From Chloroflexota bacterium (GTDB taxonomy: Bacteria > Chloroflexota > Limnocylindria > Limnocylindrales > CSP1-4): a DNA stretch of 45,274 nt. Below the pieces are notes generated by a model. The model ran no database searches. It was not told where the DNA came from and saw nothing but the letters and a program-made list of their open reading frames with translations. Location: assembly GCA_017881905.1 (NCBI GenBank), contig JADGQI010000099.1, positions 1-45,274 of the forward strand, in the 5' to 3' direction. The stretch's first letter is position 1. The number at the start of each line of letters is the position of its first letter. The translations under genes were made by a program, and so were the position numbers. Shown piece after piece: positions 19,984 through 43,793 of the stretch.

Positions 19984-20373
19984 TCAGTGGTGGGCGTCGG
20001 CCTCGATCTCGACCAGGAGGGATCGCTCGATCAGGCCAGCCACGACGACCAACGTCGCCGCCGGTCGGATGGACCCGAAGCGCTCGCCGTGGGCGGCCAG
20101 CACCGGCGTCACGGCCGCCACATCGGTCACGAACACCCGGGTCCGGACGACCTCCGCCAGGCTGAACCCGGCGTCACGGAGCGCTGCCTCGATGACGTCG
20201 AGCGCCGCGCGCGCCTGGGCTCCCGGATCGCCAGGGTGGAGCGACCGTCCGTCCGGCCCGGCGTCGGTCGTGCCGGCCACCCAGCACGCGTCGCCGACCA
20301 CGACGGCGCGGCTGTAGCCACCGGTCCCCTCCCACGGGCCGCCGGATGACACGAGACGGCGACCGCCGGTCAT
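19984..20373 (-). CDS. RidA family protein (YjgF/YER057c/UK114)
   Basis: ALDVIEAALRDAGFSLAEVVRTRVFVTDVAAV, IRPAATLVVVAGLIERSLLVEIEADA; start overlaps upstream peptidase stop (ATGA). Confidence 0.9.
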   Translation of the reverse strand: MTGGRRLVSSGGPWEGTGGYSRAVVVGDACWVAGTTDAGPDGRSLHPGDPGAQARAALDVIEAALRDAGFSLAEVVRTRVFVTDVAAVTPVLAAHGERFGSIRPAATLVVVAGLIERSLLVEIEADAHH

Positions 20374-21617
20374 GCCCGGTGTGGCCGCCATGAGGCGACG
20401 AGCGGGTCCCGGGCGACCGCCAACAGGAGCGCCGCGAGCAACGTCGTACGCGGCACGATCGAGTCCACCTCCAGGTACTCGGCCGGGGAATGGTCGTTGC
20501 CACCGATCGGACCCAGCCCGTCGAGGGTGGGAACGCCGAGCCCCGAGGTCGTGTTCGCGTCGGACGCCCCGCCGGTCGCGCAATCGACCAGCGGGAAATC
20601 GAGCCGGTCGGCGATCGCGACCGCATGATCGACTAGCCGGCCCGACCGCTCGAGCTTCTCCATCGGCCAGTGCCGGCCCATCTCCTCGACCTCGACCGTG
20701 GTGTCGGGCACGGTCGTCGTGGCCGCGATCGACCGGACCGCCGCCTCGGCGGCCTCGAGGTCGGCGCGCGCCGTCGCCCGGAGGTCCACCTCGAGGATCG
20801 CCTCCTCCGCCACCACGTTCGGCCGGATCCCGCCGTGGACGACGCCGACGTTGACCGTCACCCCCGGCCGGCGCCCGTTGAGTGCCTGCAGGGCGATCGT
20901 CTGGTGGGCCGCCTCGAGGATGGCGTTCCGGCCCTTCTCCGGCTCGACGCCCGCATGCGCCGCGCGACCCCGGATCGTCAGTCGGAAGTCGACCGTCCCC
21001 TTCCGGGCGGACACGATGTCGCCGTTCGCGCGGGCGCACTCGAGGACGAAGCAGGCATCGGTCTCGAGCGCCAGCTCTCGGATGTGCGGACTCGAGCTGG
21101 GTGAGCCGATCTCCTCGTCCGGGTTCGCGACGAACACCAATCGCTCGAACGGCAGTTCCGCGATCTCGTCCTCGTCGGTCCCCAGGGTTCGCAGCGCGAG
21201 CAAGGCGTAGAGCCCCGTCAGCAGCCCTGACTTCATGTCGGTCACGCCCGGTCCGTGAGCGACACCCGCGTCGATCCGGAACGGGCGGGCGCGCGCTGTT
21301 CCCTCCGGGAAGACGGTGTCGAGATGACCGATGAGGAGGACCCGCGGGCCGCCGCGGCGACCCTCGAGCGTCCCGATGACGGTGTCGCCGAGCGTATCGT
21401 CCGGCCGGACCTCGACGGTGGCCCCGAGCCGCTCGAGGAACCGGCGCGTCCATTGGCCGACCTGGTCGACGCCGGCCTTGGTGTAGCTCCCGCAGTCGAT
21501 GTTGACCAGCGAGGCGAGGTCCTCGAGGTACGTCGGCAGCTCCTCCTCGACGATGTCCTCGAGCTCCTCGAGCTCATCGACGCTCACCGCCGCACCGGGA
21601 GCGTGGAGGGATTCCAT
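20370..21617 (-). CDS. M20 family metallopeptidase (glutamate carboxypeptidase/ArgE/DapE-like)
   Basis: LLIGHLDTVFP, GPGVTDMKSGL, ANPDEEIGSPSS metal-ligand motifs. Confidence 0.92.
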   Translation of the reverse strand: MESLHAPGAAVSVDELEELEDIVEEELPTYLEDLASLVNIDCGSYTKAGVDQVGQWTRRFLERLGATVEVRPDDTLGDTVIGTLEGRRGGPRVLLIGHLDTVFPEGTARARPFRIDAGVAHGPGVTDMKSGLLTGLYALLALRTLGTDEDEIAELPFERLVFVANPDEEIGSPSSSPHIRELALETDACFVLECARANGDIVSARKGTVDFRLTIRGRAAHAGVEPEKGRNAILEAAHQTIALQALNGRRPGVTVNVGVVHGGIRPNVVAEEAILEVDLRATARADLEAAEAAVRSIAATTTVPDTTVEVEEMGRHWPMEKLERSGRLVDHAVAIADRLDFPLVDCATGGASDANTTSGLGVPTLDGLGPIGGNDHSPAEYLEVDSIVPRTTLLAALLLAVARDPLVASWRPHRA

Positions 21618-21687
21618 CGCCGGAGTGTAGCCGGGCTCGCCGGTCGAGCGGTCCCGCGCCACGGCGGCGCGCTATCCTGCCCGGACC

Positions 21688-23451
21688 GTGCGCGTCATCG
21701 AGATCCGCCTGCTCGAAGGACCATCCGTCTACCGGCTCGAGCCGGTGGCCAAGGTCGAGCTCGCCATCGGCCGGCGACGGACGTGGTACGGCCAGCGAGC
21801 GCCGGGCAAGCATGCCCTCGTCCACCTCGGGCGGCAGGTCCCGGCGCGTGAGTGGCCGGACGAGATCGCCGCACTGACGACCTGGATCCGCCGCCTGCGC
21901 GCCGAGCACCACGAAGGTCGCGCCGGTCTGGCCGTCCACCGGTCGTCCGACCCGGGCCACTGGATCGTGACGTTCCCGTGGACCGGAGCAGAGCGCGCCC
22001 GGACGATCGTCGACGCCGGCCTGGCTCTCACCGAACGGAACGTCTCGCCGGCGCGGACCGCCCGACTGACGGGGTCGCAGGGCCGCCTGGTCGAGCGCTG
22101 GGCGGCCCGGATCGCCGACGCCAGCACCACGCCGCCGGCGTGGATCCGCGACGCAGACCGACGGGTCCCGATCGTGTCGATCAGCGGGACGAACGGCAAG
22201 AGCACGGTCACGCGGCTGATCAGCCACATCCTCATCCTGGCCGGACGCCACGTGGGCACGACGACCTCGGACGGGGTCCTCGTCGACGAGCGGATGGTCG
22301 ATCCGGGCGACTGGACCGGTCCGGGCGGTGCGCACCAGATCCTCGGCCGATCCGACATCGACGTCGCCGTCCTCGAGACGGCCCGCGGCGGGATCGTCCT
22401 GCGCGGGGTGGGCTACGAGTCCAACGACGCGAGCATCCTGACCAATGTCAGCTCCGATCACCTGGACCTGCAGGGCATCCACACGTTGCCCGAGCTGGCC
22501 GAGGTGAAGTCCACCATCTGCCGGATCACGGCGCCCCAGGGTTGGGCGATCCTCAATGCCGACGATCCCCTGGTGGTCGAGGTCGCCCGCCGGACCCACG
22601 CACATGTCGCCCTGTTCTCGATCGACGAGGCGTCGTCGTCCAAGCTCCGTCGGCACGTCGCGCGAGGCGGACGGGCCTATGTCATCCGCCATGGGGCGCT
22701 GGTCGAGGTGGAGGACGGTGTCGCGACACCGATCATCGCCACGGCCGAGGTCCCGATCACGATCGGCGGGATCGCCCGCCACAACGTCGCCAACGCCCTT
22801 GCGGCGGCGGGCGGGGCGCGTGCGCTCGGCGCCACGGTCGACGAGGTCGCCGCGGGCTTGCGCGACTTCCGGCCCACGTCCGACCGCTCGCCGGGGCGGC
22901 TCAACCTGTTCCGCCTGGGCCAGCGGATCGTGATCGTCGACTTCGCCCACAACGAAGCGGGGATCGCAGCGGTCCTGGACGTGGCCGAGGGGATCGCCGG
23001 GGGCGCGGCCGGACGGGCAGCCCCGATCACGATCATCATCGGGACGGCAGGCGACCGCCCGGACGACACCCTGCGCGGGATCGGCCGGATCGCCGGCGAG
23101 CGCGCCCAGCGCATCGCGATCAAGGAGCCGCTCGACTATCTCCGCGGTCGGACCCGCGAGTCCGTCGTCGGCGAGCTTCTGGCCGGTGTCGCGGCGGCTG
23201 GTCGATCGCCGGAGGAGGTGACCGTCTACGAGTCGGAGACGATCGCCCTGCGGGCCGAGCTCAACGGCGCCGGCTCGCACGCCGACGGGCGCGGCGCCAG
23301 GCCCGACGCCGCCCGGGTCATCGTCCTGATGTGCCACGAACAGCGCGATGCCGTGTTCGCCCTCCTGGCCTCGGTGGGTGCCCGCCCGATCGACGTCGCG
23401 ACCGAGCTGACCGAGCTCCTGCCCCGGCTCCAGGAGCGCCCCAGGCGGTAG
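21688..23451 (+). CDS. CphA-like Mur-ligase-family protein: CphA N-type domain joined to Mur ligase domain, no ATP-grasp domain
   Basis: N-term IEIRLLEGPSVYRLEP parallels CphA VESRILRGPNYWAREP; SISGTNGKSTVTRLISHIL, ETARGGIVLRGVGY, LNADDPLVVEVAR, KEPLDYLRGRTRES; 587 aa. Confidence 0.9.
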   Translation: MRVIEIRLLEGPSVYRLEPVAKVELAIGRRRTWYGQRAPGKHALVHLGRQVPAREWPDEIAALTTWIRRLRAEHHEGRAGLAVHRSSDPGHWIVTFPWTGAERARTIVDAGLALTERNVSPARTARLTGSQGRLVERWAARIADASTTPPAWIRDADRRVPIVSISGTNGKSTVTRLISHILILAGRHVGTTTSDGVLVDERMVDPGDWTGPGGAHQILGRSDIDVAVLETARGGIVLRGVGYESNDASILTNVSSDHLDLQGIHTLPELAEVKSTICRITAPQGWAILNADDPLVVEVARRTHAHVALFSIDEASSSKLRRHVARGGRAYVIRHGALVEVEDGVATPIIATAEVPITIGGIARHNVANALAAAGGARALGATVDEVAAGLRDFRPTSDRSPGRLNLFRLGQRIVIVDFAHNEAGIAAVLDVAEGIAGGAAGRAAPITIIIGTAGDRPDDTLRGIGRIAGERAQRIAIKEPLDYLRGRTRESVVGELLAGVAAAGRSPEEVTVYESETIALRAELNGAGSHADGRGARPDAARVIVLMCHEQRDAVFALLASVGARPIDVATELTELLPRLQERPRR

Positions 23452-23556: not shown

Positions 23557-25449
23557 TCAGTCCTCGGCCAGCACGATGATCCGGTCCGCCAGGGCGAGCG
23601 ACAGCAGCTCGGCCTTGGCCGGGTTGACCTTGACCCCGTAGGACGCGGCGGCGTCCTCGGACCGCGCGAAGATGCGATACCCGAAGGCGATCTCACCCCG
23701 CCGGCGAGCGGCCTCGATGACGGCTGCGAACGGCACCTCGACGCCGAGCGCCACGTAGTCGCCCGCGGGCTTGAGGTAGATCTCCGACCCGGCCGGATCG
23801 AGCAGGTCCTCGAACACGGCGTTGAGATGCTTCGACTCTGCGACCTGGGCGATCATCAGGCTGATCAGCCGATCACTGACGATGAAGTCGTCCGCCTTGG
23901 CGACCTCGGCCAGCGCGCGGTCGCGCAGGTCGAGCATCTCGCTGACGATCGACAGGTCGAGGTTCGCCCGGGCCGCGATGTCCCGGAGGTGGAGGAGGGT
24001 GACCAGGGTCCGGGCGTCGGCGCGGCTCGGCTCGAGCGTGTCGGAGCACAGGACGATGATGTGGTCGTAGGTAGCCACGCCCAGGGCGTCGAGCGTTGCG
24101 CGGTTGCTCGGATCCCGCCCGTCGTACGTCACGCGCTGCGTGGTCAGGCGACCCTCGAGTCGGGCGAGCGGGGCTTCGACGCCGGCCCCGGCCGCCACGA
24201 CGAGGACCTCGGACCCGTCGGCGACATAGGCGTCAAGCTCGCGGATGATCGTCGGCGCCCGGCGGTTCCAACCGAGGATCAGGGTTCGCTCCGGCGCCGG
24301 GACCCGGGGTCGCGCCTCGCGTAGGAGGGCCTCGTCCAGCGTCGACGGTTCGCCTCCGGCCAGGTGGATCTGGTCGTCGTCGGCGGCGATGACGATGAGC
24401 CGATCGCCCGCCCCGAGGGCCGTGTCCGACGGCGGGTTGAGCCGTGGGCGTCCGGCGGCGGGCAGCAAGCCGATGACCGAGGCGTCGGAGAACAGCGCCA
24501 GCGTCTCCCCGAAGCCCCGGCCGACCAGGCTCGGCTGCTCGGTCAGGTAGATCTCGTCACCGGCGAAGTCGAGCAGCTCGGCGTACACGACCGACAGCCC
24601 GGACTGCCGGCAGGTCTGGGCGGTGATCCGGGAGATGACGTCCTCGGACAGGATCAGCTCCAGCTCGTCGCCGCCTACCATCCGGGCGACGTCGACGTTC
24701 GCCCGGTCGCGGATCTCGGCGACGATGTGGTAGGGCTCGGGACGACGTTTCGGGTCGTTGGTGATGGCCACGATCGACTTGATGACGTCGACGTCGGGCT
24801 CGTCACCCTCCGGAGCGAGGACGACGATCGAGCGCGCGGTCGCCAGGCTGGCGATCGCCAGGTCGTTCACATCCATCGGGCTGCCCGACCGGCAGACGAT
24901 CTTGGTCCGCCCGGTCGGGCCGACCCGCTCACGGAGCTCGTCCTCCATCTCGACCTTGTCGCGGTCGGCGAGGATGACGATCGAGCGGCGACCCAGGTTC
25001 TCGTTGGCGGCGACGATCTCGGCGACGACGGTATGGATCTGCTGCGACCAGCCGAGGATCGCGGTGTGGCCGTCCTCGATGACACGCGAGCGGCCCTTGC
25101 GCAGGTCGGACAGCTTGCCCTCGAGGCCCGTGTTGAGGATGCCGATCAGCGTGCTGATGATGAAGATGCCACCGAGCGTGACGGCGAACATCGCCAGCAG
25201 GAACCCGGGCTGGCCCTGGTCACCGCCCATCGTGCCCGGGTCGAGGGTCCGAAGGAGTCCGAAGCGGAGGAGGTCGGCGAATCCAAGGTCCTGGTCCCGG
25301 GCGACGCCGATCAGCGAGACGACGATGGCGATGCCGACGATGAGCAGGAAGGAGATGACGAACAGGCCGAGGATCAGGGCGATGGTCCCGCGGCCCATGA
25401 ACTCGTCGAAGCGGTAGCGCAGGCGGTCGCGCCAGGTCACTCGATCCAT
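23557..25449 (-). CDS. CASTOR/POLLUX-related ion channel (TM domain plus tandem RCK/NAD-binding domains)
   Basis: N-term TM segments, FAVTLGGIFIISTLIGILNTGLEGKL, GHTAILGWSQQIHTVVAEI, LILGWNRRAPTIIREL. Confidence 0.88.
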   Translation of the reverse strand: MDRVTWRDRLRYRFDEFMGRGTIALILGLFVISFLLIVGIAIVVSLIGVARDQDLGFADLLRFGLLRTLDPGTMGGDQGQPGFLLAMFAVTLGGIFIISTLIGILNTGLEGKLSDLRKGRSRVIEDGHTAILGWSQQIHTVVAEIVAANENLGRRSIVILADRDKVEMEDELRERVGPTGRTKIVCRSGSPMDVNDLAIASLATARSIVVLAPEGDEPDVDVIKSIVAITNDPKRRPEPYHIVAEIRDRANVDVARMVGGDELELILSEDVISRITAQTCRQSGLSVVYAELLDFAGDEIYLTEQPSLVGRGFGETLALFSDASVIGLLPAAGRPRLNPPSDTALGAGDRLIVIAADDDQIHLAGGEPSTLDEALLREARPRVPAPERTLILGWNRRAPTIIRELDAYVADGSEVLVVAAGAGVEAPLARLEGRLTTQRVTYDGRDPSNRATLDALGVATYDHIIVLCSDTLEPSRADARTLVTLLHLRDIAARANLDLSIVSEMLDLRDRALAEVAKADDFIVSDRLISLMIAQVAESKHLNAVFEDLLDPAGSEIYLKPAGDYVALGVEVPFAAVIEAARRRGEIAFGYRIFARSEDAAASYGVKVNPAKAELLSLALADRIIVLAED

Positions 25450-25663: not shown

Positions 25664-25688
25664 GCGCCCGGGGCTAGCCCTCGGGCGC
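25664..25688. terminator. Hairpin at the convergent microprotein/cphA 3' ends
   Basis: gcgcccg-ggg-ctag-ccc-t-cgggcgc stem with one bulge, overlapping the cphA stop codon. Confidence 0.5.
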
Positions 25689-28600
25689 CTCGAGCTCTCC
25701 GGGGTCGGCGAAAGCCGTCGGCCCACCCGGTGTCCGCGACGCGGCCATCGCCTCGCGATAGACGCCGACGGCATCGTCCACGCACATCACCACGAGGTCT
25801 CCCGGTGCGGCCCGGCGGAGGGCGGCGCGGACCGCCGTCATCTCGTCGAGGATCTTCTCCGCACGGGTGGTCCTGGCGTTGCCCGCGGTGCGCGCGTCCT
25901 TGACGCCGGCGACGACGTTCGTCGCCGTCTCGCCGGGCGAACGACCGCGCAGGTTCCGATCCTCGCGCACATAGATCTCATCGAAGGCCGTCGCCGCGAT
26001 CGCACCGTAATCGTGCTGATCGTCGTCGCGCCGGTCGCCCGGGATGCCGATCACCCCGATCGCCCGCCCGGTCCTCGGGCGGGCGCCGTTGGTCCTCGAC
26101 GGCCGAACGCCCTTCGGCCCGCGGACCTCCGGTTCGGTGACCATGTTCTCCACGAAGTCGGCCAGCTGGCGCATCCCGTCGACGTTGTGGCAGTAGTCGA
26201 TGACCACCCGGATCCCGCCGATCTCAAGCAGGTTGAGCCGACCCGGTGCCTGGAAGAACGAGGTCGAGAAGGTCCGCAGACCCTGCCGGATGTCGTGCAG
26301 GTGCGCCCCGGAGGCCCAGGCGGCCGCCGCGGCCGCGAGCGCGTTGGCGACGTTCATCCTCGCTCGCCCGCCGAAGGTGGCAGGGATGAGGTGGGTGTAC
26401 AGCACGGGCATCGTCCGCTGCCCGAGACGCAGGACGATGAGGTCGCCCTCGGCCGTCGGGTCGATCCCGAACGCCGCGCCGCCCCGCCCGAGATGGCCGT
26501 CGACCCGATCGAACCCGTCCTTGCCCTTCTCCGTGGCCATGCTGAAGTAGACGACTCGCCCGGCGCAGTGTCGGCCCATCCGGGCGACGTGCGGGTCGTC
26601 CGCGTTGAGCACCGCGGTTCCGGACCGCGGGACGGCCTCGACGACGACCCCCTTGACGTTGGCGAGCTGGCCGATCGAGTCGATCCCGCCGAGGCCGAGG
26701 TGATCCCCGGTGACGTTGGTCACGACGGCGACATCGTTCCGGTCGTAGCCCAGGCCCTCGCGCAGGATGCCGCCGCGCGCGACCTCGAAGACCGCGGTGT
26801 CGACGGTCGGGTTCTGGAGGACCATCTGGGCCGACTTGGGCCCCGACATGTCGCCCTTCTTGATCAGGCGGCCGTCGATGACGATGCCGTCGGTCGACGT
26901 CATCCCGACCCGCCGGCCCATCAGCTTGAGGATGTGGGCGATCATCCGGACGGTCGTTGTCTTGCCGTTCGTGCCCGTCACGGCGACGATCGGGATGCGC
27001 GACCCGGAGCCGGGCGGGAAGAGGTTGTCGATGACCGGCTTGGCCACGTACTGCGGCTCGCCTTCGGTCGGGTGGGTATGCATCCGGAAGCCGGGCGCGG
27101 CGTTGACCTCGACGATCGCGCCACCTGTCTCGCGGACGGGGGTCGCGATGTCCGGACAGATGAAGTCGATTCCCGCGACGTCGAGCCCGACGATGAGCGC
27201 CGCCGTCTCGGCGATCTCGACGTTGTCCGGATGCGCCTCGATGGTCCGGTCGATGGACGTCCCACCGGTCGACATGTTGCCGGTCAGGGCCAGCTTGATC
27301 CATGCGCCCTGGGGCGGGACGTCGTCGAGCTCCCAGCCCTGGACCCGGACGAGCTCCTCGGCGGCGCCGTCGAGCTTGATCCGGGTGAGGACCTTCTCGT
27401 GGCCGATCCCGCGCCGCGGATCCTGGTTGGCCTGGTCGACGAGCTGGCGGACCGACAGGCTGCCGTCACCGTGGACCGATGCCGGGACCCGCTCGGCGAT
27501 CGCGGCGACCTTCCCGCCGATGACCAGGCAGCGGTAGTCCTTCCCGGCGACGTAGGTCTCCACGACGACATCCCCGCCCCGGCTCTGGGCGAGCGCGCCG
27601 TGGAACGCCGCCCGGACGGCGTCGTCCGAGCGCAGGTCGAGGTGGACGCCACGCCCGTGGTTCCCGTCGAGCGGCTTGACCACGCACGGGAAGCCGAGCC
27701 GGTGCGCGACCGCGACCGCATCCTCCTCTCGATCGACCACATCCGCCCGTGGGACCGGCAGGCCGGCCGAGTCGAGCAGACGGTTGGTCAGGCTCTTGTC
27801 GCTGGCGACGTCGACCCCGATCGCGCTCGTCCGGCTGGTCATCGTCGCCCGGATCCGTTGCTGATGGACGCCCTGGCCGAGCTGCACGAGCGAGAACCGA
27901 TCGAGCCGGATGAACGGGATGTCGCGGCTGACGGCCTCGTCGATGAGCGCCTGCGTCGACGGACCGAACGCGGACCGCTCGGCCAGGAGGATGAGCCGCT
28001 CGAGCTCGTCGACGAGATCGAACGGCGCGGCGACCGGGTCGACCAGGTGGTTGACCAGCGCGACGGCCATCCGGCCCGCCTCGATCCCGACGGACTCCTC
28101 GCGGAACTCGTAGATGACGTTGTACTGGCCGTATGGTCCGGCCGACCGGGTCTTGCCGTGGCGGACGTCGGTGCCGGCCAGGTTCTGCAGCTCGAGCGCG
28201 ATGTGCTCGGCGACGTGGCCGGCCCACGTGCCGTCGCGGAGCCGGCTGACGAAGCCGCCCCGGCGACCGAGCGAGCAGGCGTGGTCCTCGAGCGACGGGA
28301 GCATCCCGACCAGGCCGTCGACGAAGCCCGGGATCTTGTTCGACGGGTACTCCTCGAGGCTGCCGAGATCGACCAGGAGACGGATCACCGGCTCGCGTGC
28401 CCAGTAGTTCGGTCCGCGCAGGATCCGCGACTCGACGATCCGCAGGCTGGGTTCCAGGGCGACCGATCGTGCCTTCGCGCCTCTGGCCGAGGTCGTCGGC
28501 GGCGCGCCGGCCGCGACGGCCTTCGCGGCCGGCTTGGCCGACTTCCCGGCGGGCGTGGCACCGGACTCGGCGACGGGCTTCGGGTCGGACTTCGGGGTCC

Positions 28601-28739
28601 GCTTCGCGCCGGACTTCGGGGTCGGCTTGACGCCGGACGTGGCGGCCTTGTTTGTCTGCCGGGTCGACTTCGCGCTCGGCCCGGCACCCGCCTTGTGCGG
28701 CTTCGGCTTCGAGCTCGGCTTGCGCTCGGACGGCGTCAT
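25674..28739 (-). CDS. cphA: Cyanophycin synthetase
   Basis: 1021 aa; SRILRGPNYWAREP N-domain, ATP-grasp (FPCVVKPLDGNHGRGV), Mur-ligase P-loop VTGTNGKTTTVRMIAHIL; Lys/Pro/Ala-rich N-terminal extension. Confidence 0.96.
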   Translation of the reverse strand: MTPSERKPSSKPKPHKAGAGPSAKSTRQTNKAATSGVKPTPKSGAKRTPKSDPKPVAESGATPAGKSAKPAAKAVAAGAPPTTSARGAKARSVALEPSLRIVESRILRGPNYWAREPVIRLLVDLGSLEEYPSNKIPGFVDGLVGMLPSLEDHACSLGRRGGFVSRLRDGTWAGHVAEHIALELQNLAGTDVRHGKTRSAGPYGQYNVIYEFREESVGIEAGRMAVALVNHLVDPVAAPFDLVDELERLILLAERSAFGPSTQALIDEAVSRDIPFIRLDRFSLVQLGQGVHQQRIRATMTSRTSAIGVDVASDKSLTNRLLDSAGLPVPRADVVDREEDAVAVAHRLGFPCVVKPLDGNHGRGVHLDLRSDDAVRAAFHGALAQSRGGDVVVETYVAGKDYRCLVIGGKVAAIAERVPASVHGDGSLSVRQLVDQANQDPRRGIGHEKVLTRIKLDGAAEELVRVQGWELDDVPPQGAWIKLALTGNMSTGGTSIDRTIEAHPDNVEIAETAALIVGLDVAGIDFICPDIATPVRETGGAIVEVNAAPGFRMHTHPTEGEPQYVAKPVIDNLFPPGSGSRIPIVAVTGTNGKTTTVRMIAHILKLMGRRVGMTSTDGIVIDGRLIKKGDMSGPKSAQMVLQNPTVDTAVFEVARGGILREGLGYDRNDVAVVTNVTGDHLGLGGIDSIGQLANVKGVVVEAVPRSGTAVLNADDPHVARMGRHCAGRVVYFSMATEKGKDGFDRVDGHLGRGGAAFGIDPTAEGDLIVLRLGQRTMPVLYTHLIPATFGGRARMNVANALAAAAAAWASGAHLHDIRQGLRTFSTSFFQAPGRLNLLEIGGIRVVIDYCHNVDGMRQLADFVENMVTEPEVRGPKGVRPSRTNGARPRTGRAIGVIGIPGDRRDDDQHDYGAIAATAFDEIYVREDRNLRGRSPGETATNVVAGVKDARTAGNARTTRAEKILDEMTAVRAALRRAAPGDLVVMCVDDAVGVYREAMAASRTPGGPTAFADPGELEAPEG

Positions 28740-29569
28740 GTGGCGGCCTCGCCGCCGCTCACCGCGCGAAGGGCCGGGGCCGCGACGCGATGGCGACGCC
28801 GCAGGTCGAACCGATAGCCGGCGGGGAGGGAGTGCAGGACGACGTTGCTGATCATCAGGGGCCGATGGCCGCCCACTTCCCAGGCGTCCGTCTCCGATGC
28901 GGCTCCGTCGATGATGGTCACACTGCCCCGGCCGATGACCTCGAGCACATGATCCGGCCCGACCACGCCGGCCGTGTCCTCATCGATGCCGAGGCCGAGA
29001 AGGCTCGGGTTCTGGGCGATCAGGCTGAGCAACCGCCCGAGTCGGTTCCGCTGCTGGAAATGCTGATCGATGATGACGCCCGGGAGCACGCCGAGGCCGG
29101 CCGCGATCTGGGCCATCCGTTGCTTCGGCGTCGCTCCGGATGCTCCGAACGCGATCATGTGGCTGCTCATGGCCGACGCACCGGCGCTCGTCCCGGCGAC
29201 GACCGCCCCGAGGCGGAACCGGTCGAGGATCGAGTCGGCCAGACGGGTGCCGCCGAGCGTCGAGGCGAGGCGGAGCTGGTTCCCGCCCGTCATGAAGATC
29301 CCCGTCGCGTCCTGGACGGCGCGGACCGCGGCCTCGTCGTTGGCCTGCGGTCGGGTCACGGCGTGGAGCGTGTGGACCTCGCGCGCTCCGAGCTCCATGA
29401 ACACCTGCCGATAGCGCTGTCCGGCCTCCAGGCCGAGCGACGAAGCGGTGCTGATCACCGCGATCGTCGCGTCCTCGCCACCCGCGAGCGCGATGAACCG
29501 ACTGAGGATGACACGGTCCCGGACCTTGTCCTCCGCGCCGCCGATGACGAGGACGGTACCTTCGGCCAC
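28736..29569 (-). CDS. cphB: Cyanophycinase
   Basis: VLVIGGAEDK, GIFMTGGNQLRL, VAGTSAGASAMS nucleophile motif; stop overlaps cphA start. Confidence 0.95.
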   Translation of the reverse strand: MAEGTVLVIGGAEDKVRDRVILSRFIALAGGEDATIAVISTASSLGLEAGQRYRQVFMELGAREVHTLHAVTRPQANDEAAVRAVQDATGIFMTGGNQLRLASTLGGTRLADSILDRFRLGAVVAGTSAGASAMSSHMIAFGASGATPKQRMAQIAAGLGVLPGVIIDQHFQQRNRLGRLLSLIAQNPSLLGLGIDEDTAGVVGPDHVLEVIGRGSVTIIDGAASETDAWEVGGHRPLMISNVVLHSLPAGYRFDLRRRHRVAAPALRAVSGGEAAT

Positions 29570-41590: not shown

Positions 41591-43360
41591 CTACGCCCGG
41601 TAGGCCACGACCAGCGCGGGATCGTCGCCCGACGGCCCAGGGATCCGCTCGAACCCGACCCGTGTCAGCAGGCGATCCGCGATCTCGCGGCGGCTCGCGA
41701 TCGGCAGCGGTTCGATCACATCGCGCTCCCCCAGTCCGATCCTCGCGACGAGGCGGACGCTCCGTTCGCGGGCATCCCCGACCGACGCCGCGAGAAGCGC
41801 CCCGGCGAGACCTCGGCGCCGCCAGCCCGGAGCGACGCCGAGTGCGATCAGCTCGTCCTCCGGCGCGGTCGACCGGGCCGGGGCTGTCCCAGGGCCGGGC
41901 TGGGCGGAAGCCGTGAGGGCGACCCCGACGAGATGCTCCCCGTCGACCGCGCCGACGAGATGCGCGCCGGCGCGGACCGCGCGGACGAGGATGCCCAGCG
42001 CGGCGCGGGGATCGCACGGGGCGATCGTCCGCGCGGCCAGCCGAAGGCCGTCGAGCGACGCCGCATCCAGGCGCCGGATGACCGGCGTGCCGCTCGGTCC
42101 CAGCGGAGGATCCCAGCGATCGGCGGCCGTGACACCGTCTCGTCCGGTCCCGACGGTCATCGCGTCGGACCAGCCGCGATCCTCGGCAACGGTCGACAGC
42201 CTCGGGACGATGAGCTCGCGCACCAGCTCGAGGGTGGCGAGGGACTGGCTTTCCGCGGTCTCCTGACTCGGACCCCGTCCGAAGCCAGCGTTCGTCGGGT
42301 CGTCGAATCGATCCGGCAGCGGTCCCGGGTCCCAACGGGCGGCCTCGCCCGCCCATCGTTCGCGCCAGGCCTCGGGGACGGCATCGGGCACCGCGCGGTG
42401 GGCTCCGGCCAGCCACGTGAGCGCCCACGCCCGCGGCACGACCCGATAGACCTCGTATCCACCGCCGCCCGTGGCCAGCCAGCGCCCGCCCGCGAACCGG
42501 TGGGCTACGGCGTCCACCAGGCGCGCCGCCTCGCCCATCCCCGTCGTGGTGACCCTGAGGTGCGCCAGGGGGTCCCAAGCGTGACTGTCCGCGCCGTGCT
42601 GGCTGACGATGAGGTCGGGCCCGAAGGTCGCGGCCAGGGTCGGGACGAGCGCCCGGATCGCCGCCAGCCAGACACCGTCCCCGCTGAGCGGCTCGAAGGG
42701 CACGTTGACAACGGTCCCCGCCGCGACCCCTTCCCCGGCCTCGTCGGCGGACCCGGTCCCCGGGAAGAGATAGCGCCCCGATTCATGGAACGAGACGGTC
42801 ATGACGCCCGGGTCGTCGCGGTGGATCGCCTCGACCCCGTCGCCGTGATGGACGTCGAGGTCGACATACAGGACGCGGAGGCCGGCCCGACGGGCCGACG
42901 AGATCGCCAGGGCCGGGTCGTCGTAGACGCAGAACCCGGACGCGCGCTCCGGCATGGCGTGATGGAGACCGCCGCCCGGGTGGTAGGCGTGCTCGACGTC
43001 GCCCCGGAGGATCGCCGCCATGGCCGCGAGCGAACCGCCGGCGACCGCAGCGGCCGCCGCGTGCATGCCACGGAACGGCGGGACATCGCCCAGCGGCGCG
43101 ATCCCGAACGCCGGCGGAATGCCCGGGTCCGCGCTGAACCGGCGGACCGCTGCCAGGTACGCCTCGGTGTGCACGGCGAGCAGCTCGTCGTCGGTCGCCG
43201 GCTGGGGGGCGAGTCCCGGTACGGCTCCGACGGCCCGGAGCAGGTCGATGCCGGGACCGAAGCGACGCGGGGTCAGCGGGTGATGAGCCCCGAAGTCGTA
43301 GGTCGCCGACCGCGGCCCGAAGACGAGCAGCGGGCCGTCGGAGGCGGCAGGACCGACCAT
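41591..43360 (-). CDS. Fusion protein: histone deacetylase/AcuC-like deacetylase (N-term) plus GNAT acetyltransferase (C-term)
   Basis: HDAC motifs YHPGGGLHHAMPERASGFCVYDDPALAI, LYVDLDVHHGDGVEAIHRDDP, SQHGADSHAWDPLA; GNAT motif A ELIALGVAPGWRRRGLAGALLAA; ORF may start at 43381. Confidence 0.88.
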   Translation of the reverse strand: MVGPAASDGPLLVFGPRSATYDFGAHHPLTPRRFGPGIDLLRAVGAVPGLAPQPATDDELLAVHTEAYLAAVRRFSADPGIPPAFGIAPLGDVPPFRGMHAAAAAVAGGSLAAMAAILRGDVEHAYHPGGGLHHAMPERASGFCVYDDPALAISSARRAGLRVLYVDLDVHHGDGVEAIHRDDPGVMTVSFHESGRYLFPGTGSADEAGEGVAAGTVVNVPFEPLSGDGVWLAAIRALVPTLAATFGPDLIVSQHGADSHAWDPLAHLRVTTTGMGEAARLVDAVAHRFAGGRWLATGGGGYEVYRVVPRAWALTWLAGAHRAVPDAVPEAWRERWAGEAARWDPGPLPDRFDDPTNAGFGRGPSQETAESQSLATLELVRELIVPRLSTVAEDRGWSDAMTVGTGRDGVTAADRWDPPLGPSGTPVIRRLDAASLDGLRLAARTIAPCDPRAALGILVRAVRAGAHLVGAVDGEHLVGVALTASAQPGPGTAPARSTAPEDELIALGVAPGWRRRGLAGALLAASVGDARERSVRLVARIGLGERDVIEPLPIASRREIADRLLTRVGFERIPGPSGDDPALVVAYRA

Positions 43361-43379
43361 GCGTGGCACGATACCCGGC

Positions 43380-43793
43380 ATGGAACGCGTCTACACCACT
43401 CCGCGGATCGACAAGCTCGGGGTGCGGCCGGGGGCTCGGGTGGCGATCGTCGGGGTCCCCGACGCCGACCTTCGCGACGAGCTCCGGGCGCGGACCCACG
43501 ACCTGACCGAGGGCGCCCCGCTCGCGGACACCGACATCGTGATCTTCGGGGCCGATTCGCAGCCTGCGCTCGGCCGGCTCGGCGAGCTCAGGACCAGGAT
43601 CGTCCCGAACGGCGCGATCTGGGTCGTCTCGCCGAAGGGCAAGGCGGCCACGCTCCGCGACGTCGAGGTGATGGCGGCGGCGCGGGCGGTCGGCCTGGTG
43701 GACAACAAGGTCGCCAGCTTCTCGCCGACCCACACGGCCATGCGCCTGGTCATCCCGGTCGCCCTGCGACCCTCCGTCCATCCCGCCGGCTGA
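43380..43793 (+). CDS. DUF3052-like protein
   Basis: KLGVRPGARVAIVGVPD, GAIWVVSPKGK, GLVDNKVASFSPTHTAMRLVIP. Confidence 0.75.
   Translation: MERVYTTPRIDKLGVRPGARVAIVGVPDADLRDELRARTHDLTEGAPLADTDIVIFGADSQPALGRLGELRTRIVPNGAIWVVSPKGKAATLRDVEVMAAARAVGLVDNKVASFSPTHTAMRLVIPVALRPSVHPAG

Follow-up and report, generated by a model that had tools for sequence, protein, structure and literature searches.

Introduction

Cyanophycin is a bacterial nitrogen-storage polymer. The full-length synthetase CphA1 combines an N domain, an ATP-grasp (G) domain and a Mur-ligase (M) domain. The HxxEH metallopeptidase motif of its N domain makes primers, and mutation of D585/H586 inactivates its M domain (PMC9262961). 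Domain-reduced relatives stand beside CphA1, namely CphA2 in Cyanobacteriota and the lid-less CphA' in Pseudomonadota, and in both of them G is retained and M is partly lost. MurE has the Mur-ligase fold and mechanism in common with the M domain but differs in its N domain and in its UDP-MurNAc peptide acceptor, and its DNPR/DNPA motif touches the incoming amino acid (PMC3829189). Searches of the open literature, as distinct from subscription papers and preprints, turned up studies of CphA1 and CphA2, of the N-domain site, of gene clusters for the pathway and of pseudomurein ligases, but none of a G-less partner of CphA.

Here we analyzed a window of 45,274 nucleotides from a Chloroflexota bacterium, in which a preliminary description had noted a CphA-like ligase without the ATP-grasp domain. 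The public annotation label for this protein is merely "Mur ligase family protein". Its arrangement is the reverse of that in CphA2, which has an active G and an inactive M domain, and of that in CphA', and the family to which it belongs is apparently, on present and provisional judgement, undescribed.

Results

A CphA-family ligase composed of a reduced N domain and an M domain

The 587-aa open reading frame was confirmed and is conserved in relatives of the same family with the same N-terminus and 53-75% identity. The ligase gene and its domains are arranged as follows:

21688-23451, plus strand: G-less CphA-family ligase (N'+M), 587 aa, GTG start
21688-22047, plus strand: reduced N domain, residues 1-120, aligned to the CphA N domain by hhalign
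22066-22137, plus strand: short helical linker, residues 127-150, which replaces the ~320-aa ATP-grasp domain of CphA
22150-23271, plus strand: M domain (Mur-ligase), residues 155-528, with P-loop K171, E230, D257/H258 and K274
23122-23160, plus strand: KEPLDYLRGRTRE loop, residues 479-491, aligned with the MurE DNPR loop and the CphA KEDxxxRGR loop

The NCBIfam model for cyanophycin synthetase, TIGR02068, matched only ligase residues 155-528 (model positions 474-838 of 862), which correspond to the M domain alone, and the resulting 373.6 bits lie below the cut-off of 850 for CphA1. Pfam recognized Mur_ligase_M at 78.8 bits (cut-off 24) and scored Mur_ligase_C at 27.3 bits, slightly under its cut-off of 28.4, and from this pair we counted the protein as a member of the Mur ligase superfamily. 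The claimed absence of the G domain was borne out, as relaxing the Pfam threshold to E 10 still brought up no ATP-grasp family and TIGR02068 aligned only from position 474. The AlphaFold model (pLDDT 87, pTM 0.88) places a helix at residues 129-144 of the linker. When this model was searched with Foldseek, CphA1 structures ranked at the top (TM 0.74-0.75) over ~900 alignment columns, a length that is consistent with N and M being aligned and G forming a gap, and MurE ranked second (TM ~0.5, ~20% identity). The score against the MurE model TIGR01085 was 101.1 bits, below the cut-off of 257.3. Taken together, the Pfam, TIGR02068, hhalign and AlphaFold/Foldseek comparisons support an N and an M domain with G absent.

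The preliminary description had matched the N-terminal region to the CphA N domain. The Pfam N-domain model did not recognize the first ~120 residues, the sequence of which is too diverged. Profile-profile comparison aligned this region with the CphA N domain over 122 columns (E 1.7e-8; reversed control, E 0.31), and the AlphaFold/Foldseek comparison showed the same likeness. In addition, a start motif, [ED]xRxLxGPN, is common to nearly all short ligases and Chloroflexota CphAs. The HxxEH helix and site, however, are missing from the clade's short ligases, whereas those partner CphAs with a readable N domain have kept the site. Homology was thus upheld, but the ligase domain is not simply a CphA N domain, because it is reduced and has lost the primer-making site. 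In this reduced form, it may be unable to hold the polymer.

The active site is intact and the amino-acid loop is altered

All of the motifs quoted in the preliminary description (SGTNGKST, ARGGI, NADDP and KE.DYLRGRTRES) were found. Ligase residues K171 (P-loop), E230, D257/H258 and K274 correspond to K499, E558, D585/H586 and K602 of Synechocystis CphA, and these positions are at least 95% conserved in both the short ligases and the CphAs. The P-loop lysine, DH pair and Mur-type lysine that define a CphA1-type M domain are therefore unchanged in the window ligase, and the loss of catalytic residues that would have spoken against an active enzyme was not found.

The loop that aligns with the MurE DNPR motif is different. 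In CphA, this loop reads [KR]ED-xxx-RGR, with its aspartate 98% conserved, whereas in most short ligases it reads KExxxYLRGR, with one residue inserted and the aspartate nearly always gone. Furthermore, the CphA motif GDRRD is mostly GDR[PST]D in the short ligases, nearly all of which have lost the second arginine. Throughout the family, the loop that selects the amino acid is thus unlike that of CphA, which makes arginine an improbable substrate, a suggestion that draws on homology with MurE. Identity between CphAs and short ligases is only mildly lower in the amino-acid loop (ratio 0.74) than in the acceptor region (0.83), and we therefore base the argument on the discrete motif changes. The acceptor-side loops (TGPxxA, ARGG) are largely those of CphA, which argues for the backbone aspartate carboxylate as acceptor. 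The partner CphAs retain GDRR and RGR, and we therefore rejected the idea that the ligase stands in for a broken CphA M domain.

G-less ligases form one clade derived from CphA

In a maximum-likelihood tree of 97 M domains, rebuilt minus three rows after a first tree with very long branches, 47 G-less ligases formed one clade (95/96) separate from all CphAs, with members from Chloroflexota, Actinomycetota, Planctomycetota, Myxococcota and Pseudomonadota. The deep branch that unites them has moderate support, with 81 in a quick tree and 95/96 in the more careful tree. The MurE-like outgroup was set apart with support of 100/100, and the window ligase grouped with the G-less clade, far from MurE. 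It shares with this clade the lack of G, the monophyletic M domain, the KExxxYLRGR loop and a CphA in the same genome. Because the ligase is conserved in 24 related genomes and belongs to one clade across five phyla, we rejected the idea that it is a pseudogene or was truncated only locally.

In the Planctomycetota, Myxococcota and Pseudomonadota members (class II), the stretch that joins N to M can still be recognized as the start of a G domain (E 6.7e-7; control 0.14). The same holds for one Chloroflexota family, f25 (E 4e-5; control 0.08). These remnants in deep members indicate that the family arose from a three-domain ancestor by loss of the G domain and support its derivation from CphA.

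Two further G-less CphAs look like losses of G separate from the main clade, one on a Legionella adelaidensis plasmid (L113, 7611-9500), which was placed with Bacteroidota CphAs in the first tree, and one in a Bacillota genome (L156, 3163-5379). Both keep the HxxEH site in the N domain, and their loops are nearer the CphA form. In a 744-aa Clostridium protein (L155, 4030-6264, minus strand), the M domain is of the CphA type and the N-terminal half is much altered; the same genome also encodes a full CphA. A Deinococcus "Mur ligase family protein" (L114, 4699-7215) is similar to CphA and contains a G domain that has diverged strongly (68 bits). Viral contigs yielded no matches.

The ligase co-occurs with CphA across five phyla

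We surveyed ~1,335 genomes from five phyla with TIGR02068 and tallied them by hand:

Chloroflexota: 251 genomes, CphA in 28, ligase in 24, both in 24
Pseudomonadota: 397 genomes, CphA in 37, ligase in 7, both in 7
Planctomycetota: 248 genomes, CphA in 28, ligase in 20, both in 20
Myxococcota: 191 genomes, CphA in 23, ligase in 12, both in 12
Actinomycetota: 248 genomes, CphA in 18, ligase in 17, both in 16

CphA was present in 79 of the 80 genomes that encode the ligase, and the sole exception, which has the ligase but no CphA, is a small and perhaps incomplete genome. Some entries are fragments at contig edges (e.g., G153, G918, G1099), and we had picked the centre genomes for carrying the ligase gene; neither point changes the picture. 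For phyla other than Chloroflexota, the names were read from the titles of the centre records. Fisher tests per phylum, which ignore relatedness, gave P values from 4e-8 to 1e-29. About 60% of the sampled CphA genomes in these phyla also have the ligase. In family f25, the two genes are unlinked yet both occur in 6/6 sampled CphA genomes, and in Shinella and Ruegeria they lie in tandem cphB-cphA-ligase arrays with gaps of 12-14 bp. Tree distances of CphA and ligase were correlated over 26 pairs (Mantel r 0.87; 0/5000 permutations). In one Chloroflexota genome, the ligase groups with the Pseudomonadota type, as does its CphA on another contig, so that both genes seem to have entered this genome from another source.

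No ligases of this family were found in Cyanobacteriota (195 genomes, 79 with CphA) or in Bacillota (299 genomes, 93 over the cut-off), where two odd M-containing proteins lack the family loop. The G-less ligase and the lid-less CphA' were never seen in one genome in the Pseudomonadota and Myxococcota surveys. The near-absolute co-occurrence with CphA over five phyla makes the link of the ligase to cyanophycin strong, as the preliminary description had anticipated, and a ligase almost never found without a full CphA probably modifies the same polymer.

Neighboring genes do not identify the substrate

The genes around the ligase in the window are as follows:

20370-21662, minus strand: M20 peptidase (glutamate carboxypeptidase-like), in divergent orientation to the ligase gene
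23557-25449, minus strand: Castor/Pollux-type RCK channel-like gene, between ligase and cphA
25674-28739, minus strand: CphA1 of full length (N+G+M), its Cx19HxxEH primer site intact, TIGR02068 1121 bits (cut-off 850)
28736-29569, minus strand: cyanophycinase CphB, 4-bp overlap with cphA, TIGR02069 266 bits

The description of the ligase as lying beside a complete cphBA pair was correct as to completeness, but cphA and cphB are encoded on the minus strand, and between cphA and the ligase gene lies the channel-like gene, for which the related loci compared yielded no homologue. Elsewhere in the window, a histone-deacetylase-type domain is fused to a GNAT acetyltransferase domain (41591-43381, minus strand).

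The M20 peptidase gene adjoins the ligase gene divergently in two Chloroflexota families. Because IadA and IaaA are mostly absent from CphA-bearing Chloroflexota genomes (missing in 24/24 and 21/24 of those tested, respectively), the M20 enzyme may take the place of the missing dipeptidase, a role in the cyanophycin pathway for which it is a candidate. An IaaA gene adjoins the ligase in one Pseudomonadota genome (L146) and lies within the same array as the G-less protein in L. adelaidensis.

Directly upstream of cphB-cphA-ligase in Ruegeria and one close relative (L111, 966-3587; L143, 2872-5493) lie a saccharopine-dehydrogenase-type gene, of the lysine type in Ruegeria, and an aldehyde dehydrogenase gene, which possibly represent lysine catabolism. 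Family f25 has a P5C reductase gene among the ligase neighbors, the window has glutamate-related genes, and in most relatives the neighbors name no amino acid. Because these hints point in different ways, we claim no substrate from them.

Discussion

The ligase shares with CphA1 an N-terminal motif, a homologous N domain, a complete M domain and its catalytic residues, and differs from it in lacking G and the HxxEH primer site, in its altered loop and in its separate clade. Its architecture, its descent, its intact active site and its dependence on CphA are results of the computational comparison. We propose that it is an active ATP-dependent ligase that derived from CphA by loss of G and, as a partner of CphA, adds an amino acid other than arginine to cyanophycin, a reading that we hold tentatively and rate a little short of even. 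The addition of arginine or another amino acid to a pre-existing backbone, as put forward in the preliminary description, is consistent with these results. Judged from sequence, the most likely function of the ligase is to modify cyanophycin or the units from which it is built with an amino acid that is probably not arginine, and we infer that it acts on cyanophycin and not on free dipeptides. In this proposal, a three-domain cyanophycin synthetase lost its ATP-grasp domain and became a partner of CphA that, for want of G, is not expected to lengthen the aspartate backbone. The ligase would phosphorylate a carboxylate, as the CphA M domain does, most likely the beta-carboxyl of a cyanophycin aspartate, and would couple the amino acid to it. 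Because that amino acid is probably not arginine, the host would store cyanophycin with mixed or altered side chains.

The shared fold and intact catalytic residues would also suit a second arginine ligase, which would apply the chemistry of the CphA M domain in trans to fill bare aspartates or raise the arginine load, and the L113 and L156 proteins with their near-CphA loops suggest that an arginine-type N+M enzyme is evolutionarily within reach. However, the amino-acid loop is changed throughout the main clade and the M domains of partner CphAs look intact, and we regard this explanation as unlikely. A subunit that binds CphA to regulate or scaffold it, with little activity of its own, would account for the strict dependence on CphA, but the catalytic residues are conserved over five phyla, as they would not be in a pseudoenzyme, which leaves such a role quite improbable. 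A different acceptor is conceivable on chemical grounds, as Mur ligases take peptide carboxylates and each arginine of cyanophycin bears a free one, such that the alpha-carboxyl of a side-chain arginine would be activated and extended by a further amino acid. Against such branching, the largely CphA-like acceptor-side loops favor the backbone aspartate carboxylate, and we consider it improbable.

The reduction of the N domain, the polymer anchor in CphA, fits an enzyme for small molecules, which would join free aspartate or beta-Asp-Arg to an amino acid to yield primers or stored dipeptides and leave the polymer unmodified; CphA1 itself was proposed to form beta-Asp-Arg slowly (PMC9262961). 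Yet the start motif of the N domain is conserved family-wide, and the partner CphAs retain HxxEH, so primers should not be limiting, which makes primer supply by the ligase less likely and this explanation as a whole distinctly doubtful. Apart from its Mur-ligase fold, little suggests that the protein is a common Mur ligase, of peptidoglycan synthesis or otherwise, with cphA as a mere chance neighbor, given the distance from MurE in the tree, the MurE score of 101 bits against a cut-off of 257 and the co-occurrence with CphA in 79/80 genomes; the tree and the co-occurrence led us to discard it, and its probability is close to nil.

Designed cyanophycins could be made with the help of a second side-chain ligase from nature. 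Either the polymer differs from the textbook in these bacteria, or its synthesis needs a helper that is unknown from cyanobacteria. Our broader suggestion, for which we claim rather less than even likelihood, is that an undescribed and widespread third cyanophycin enzyme adds an amino acid other than arginine and thereby gives rise to chemically different cyanophycins in five phyla. If this is true, then "cyanophycin" in these bacteria would not be the Asp-Arg polymer known from cyanobacteria.
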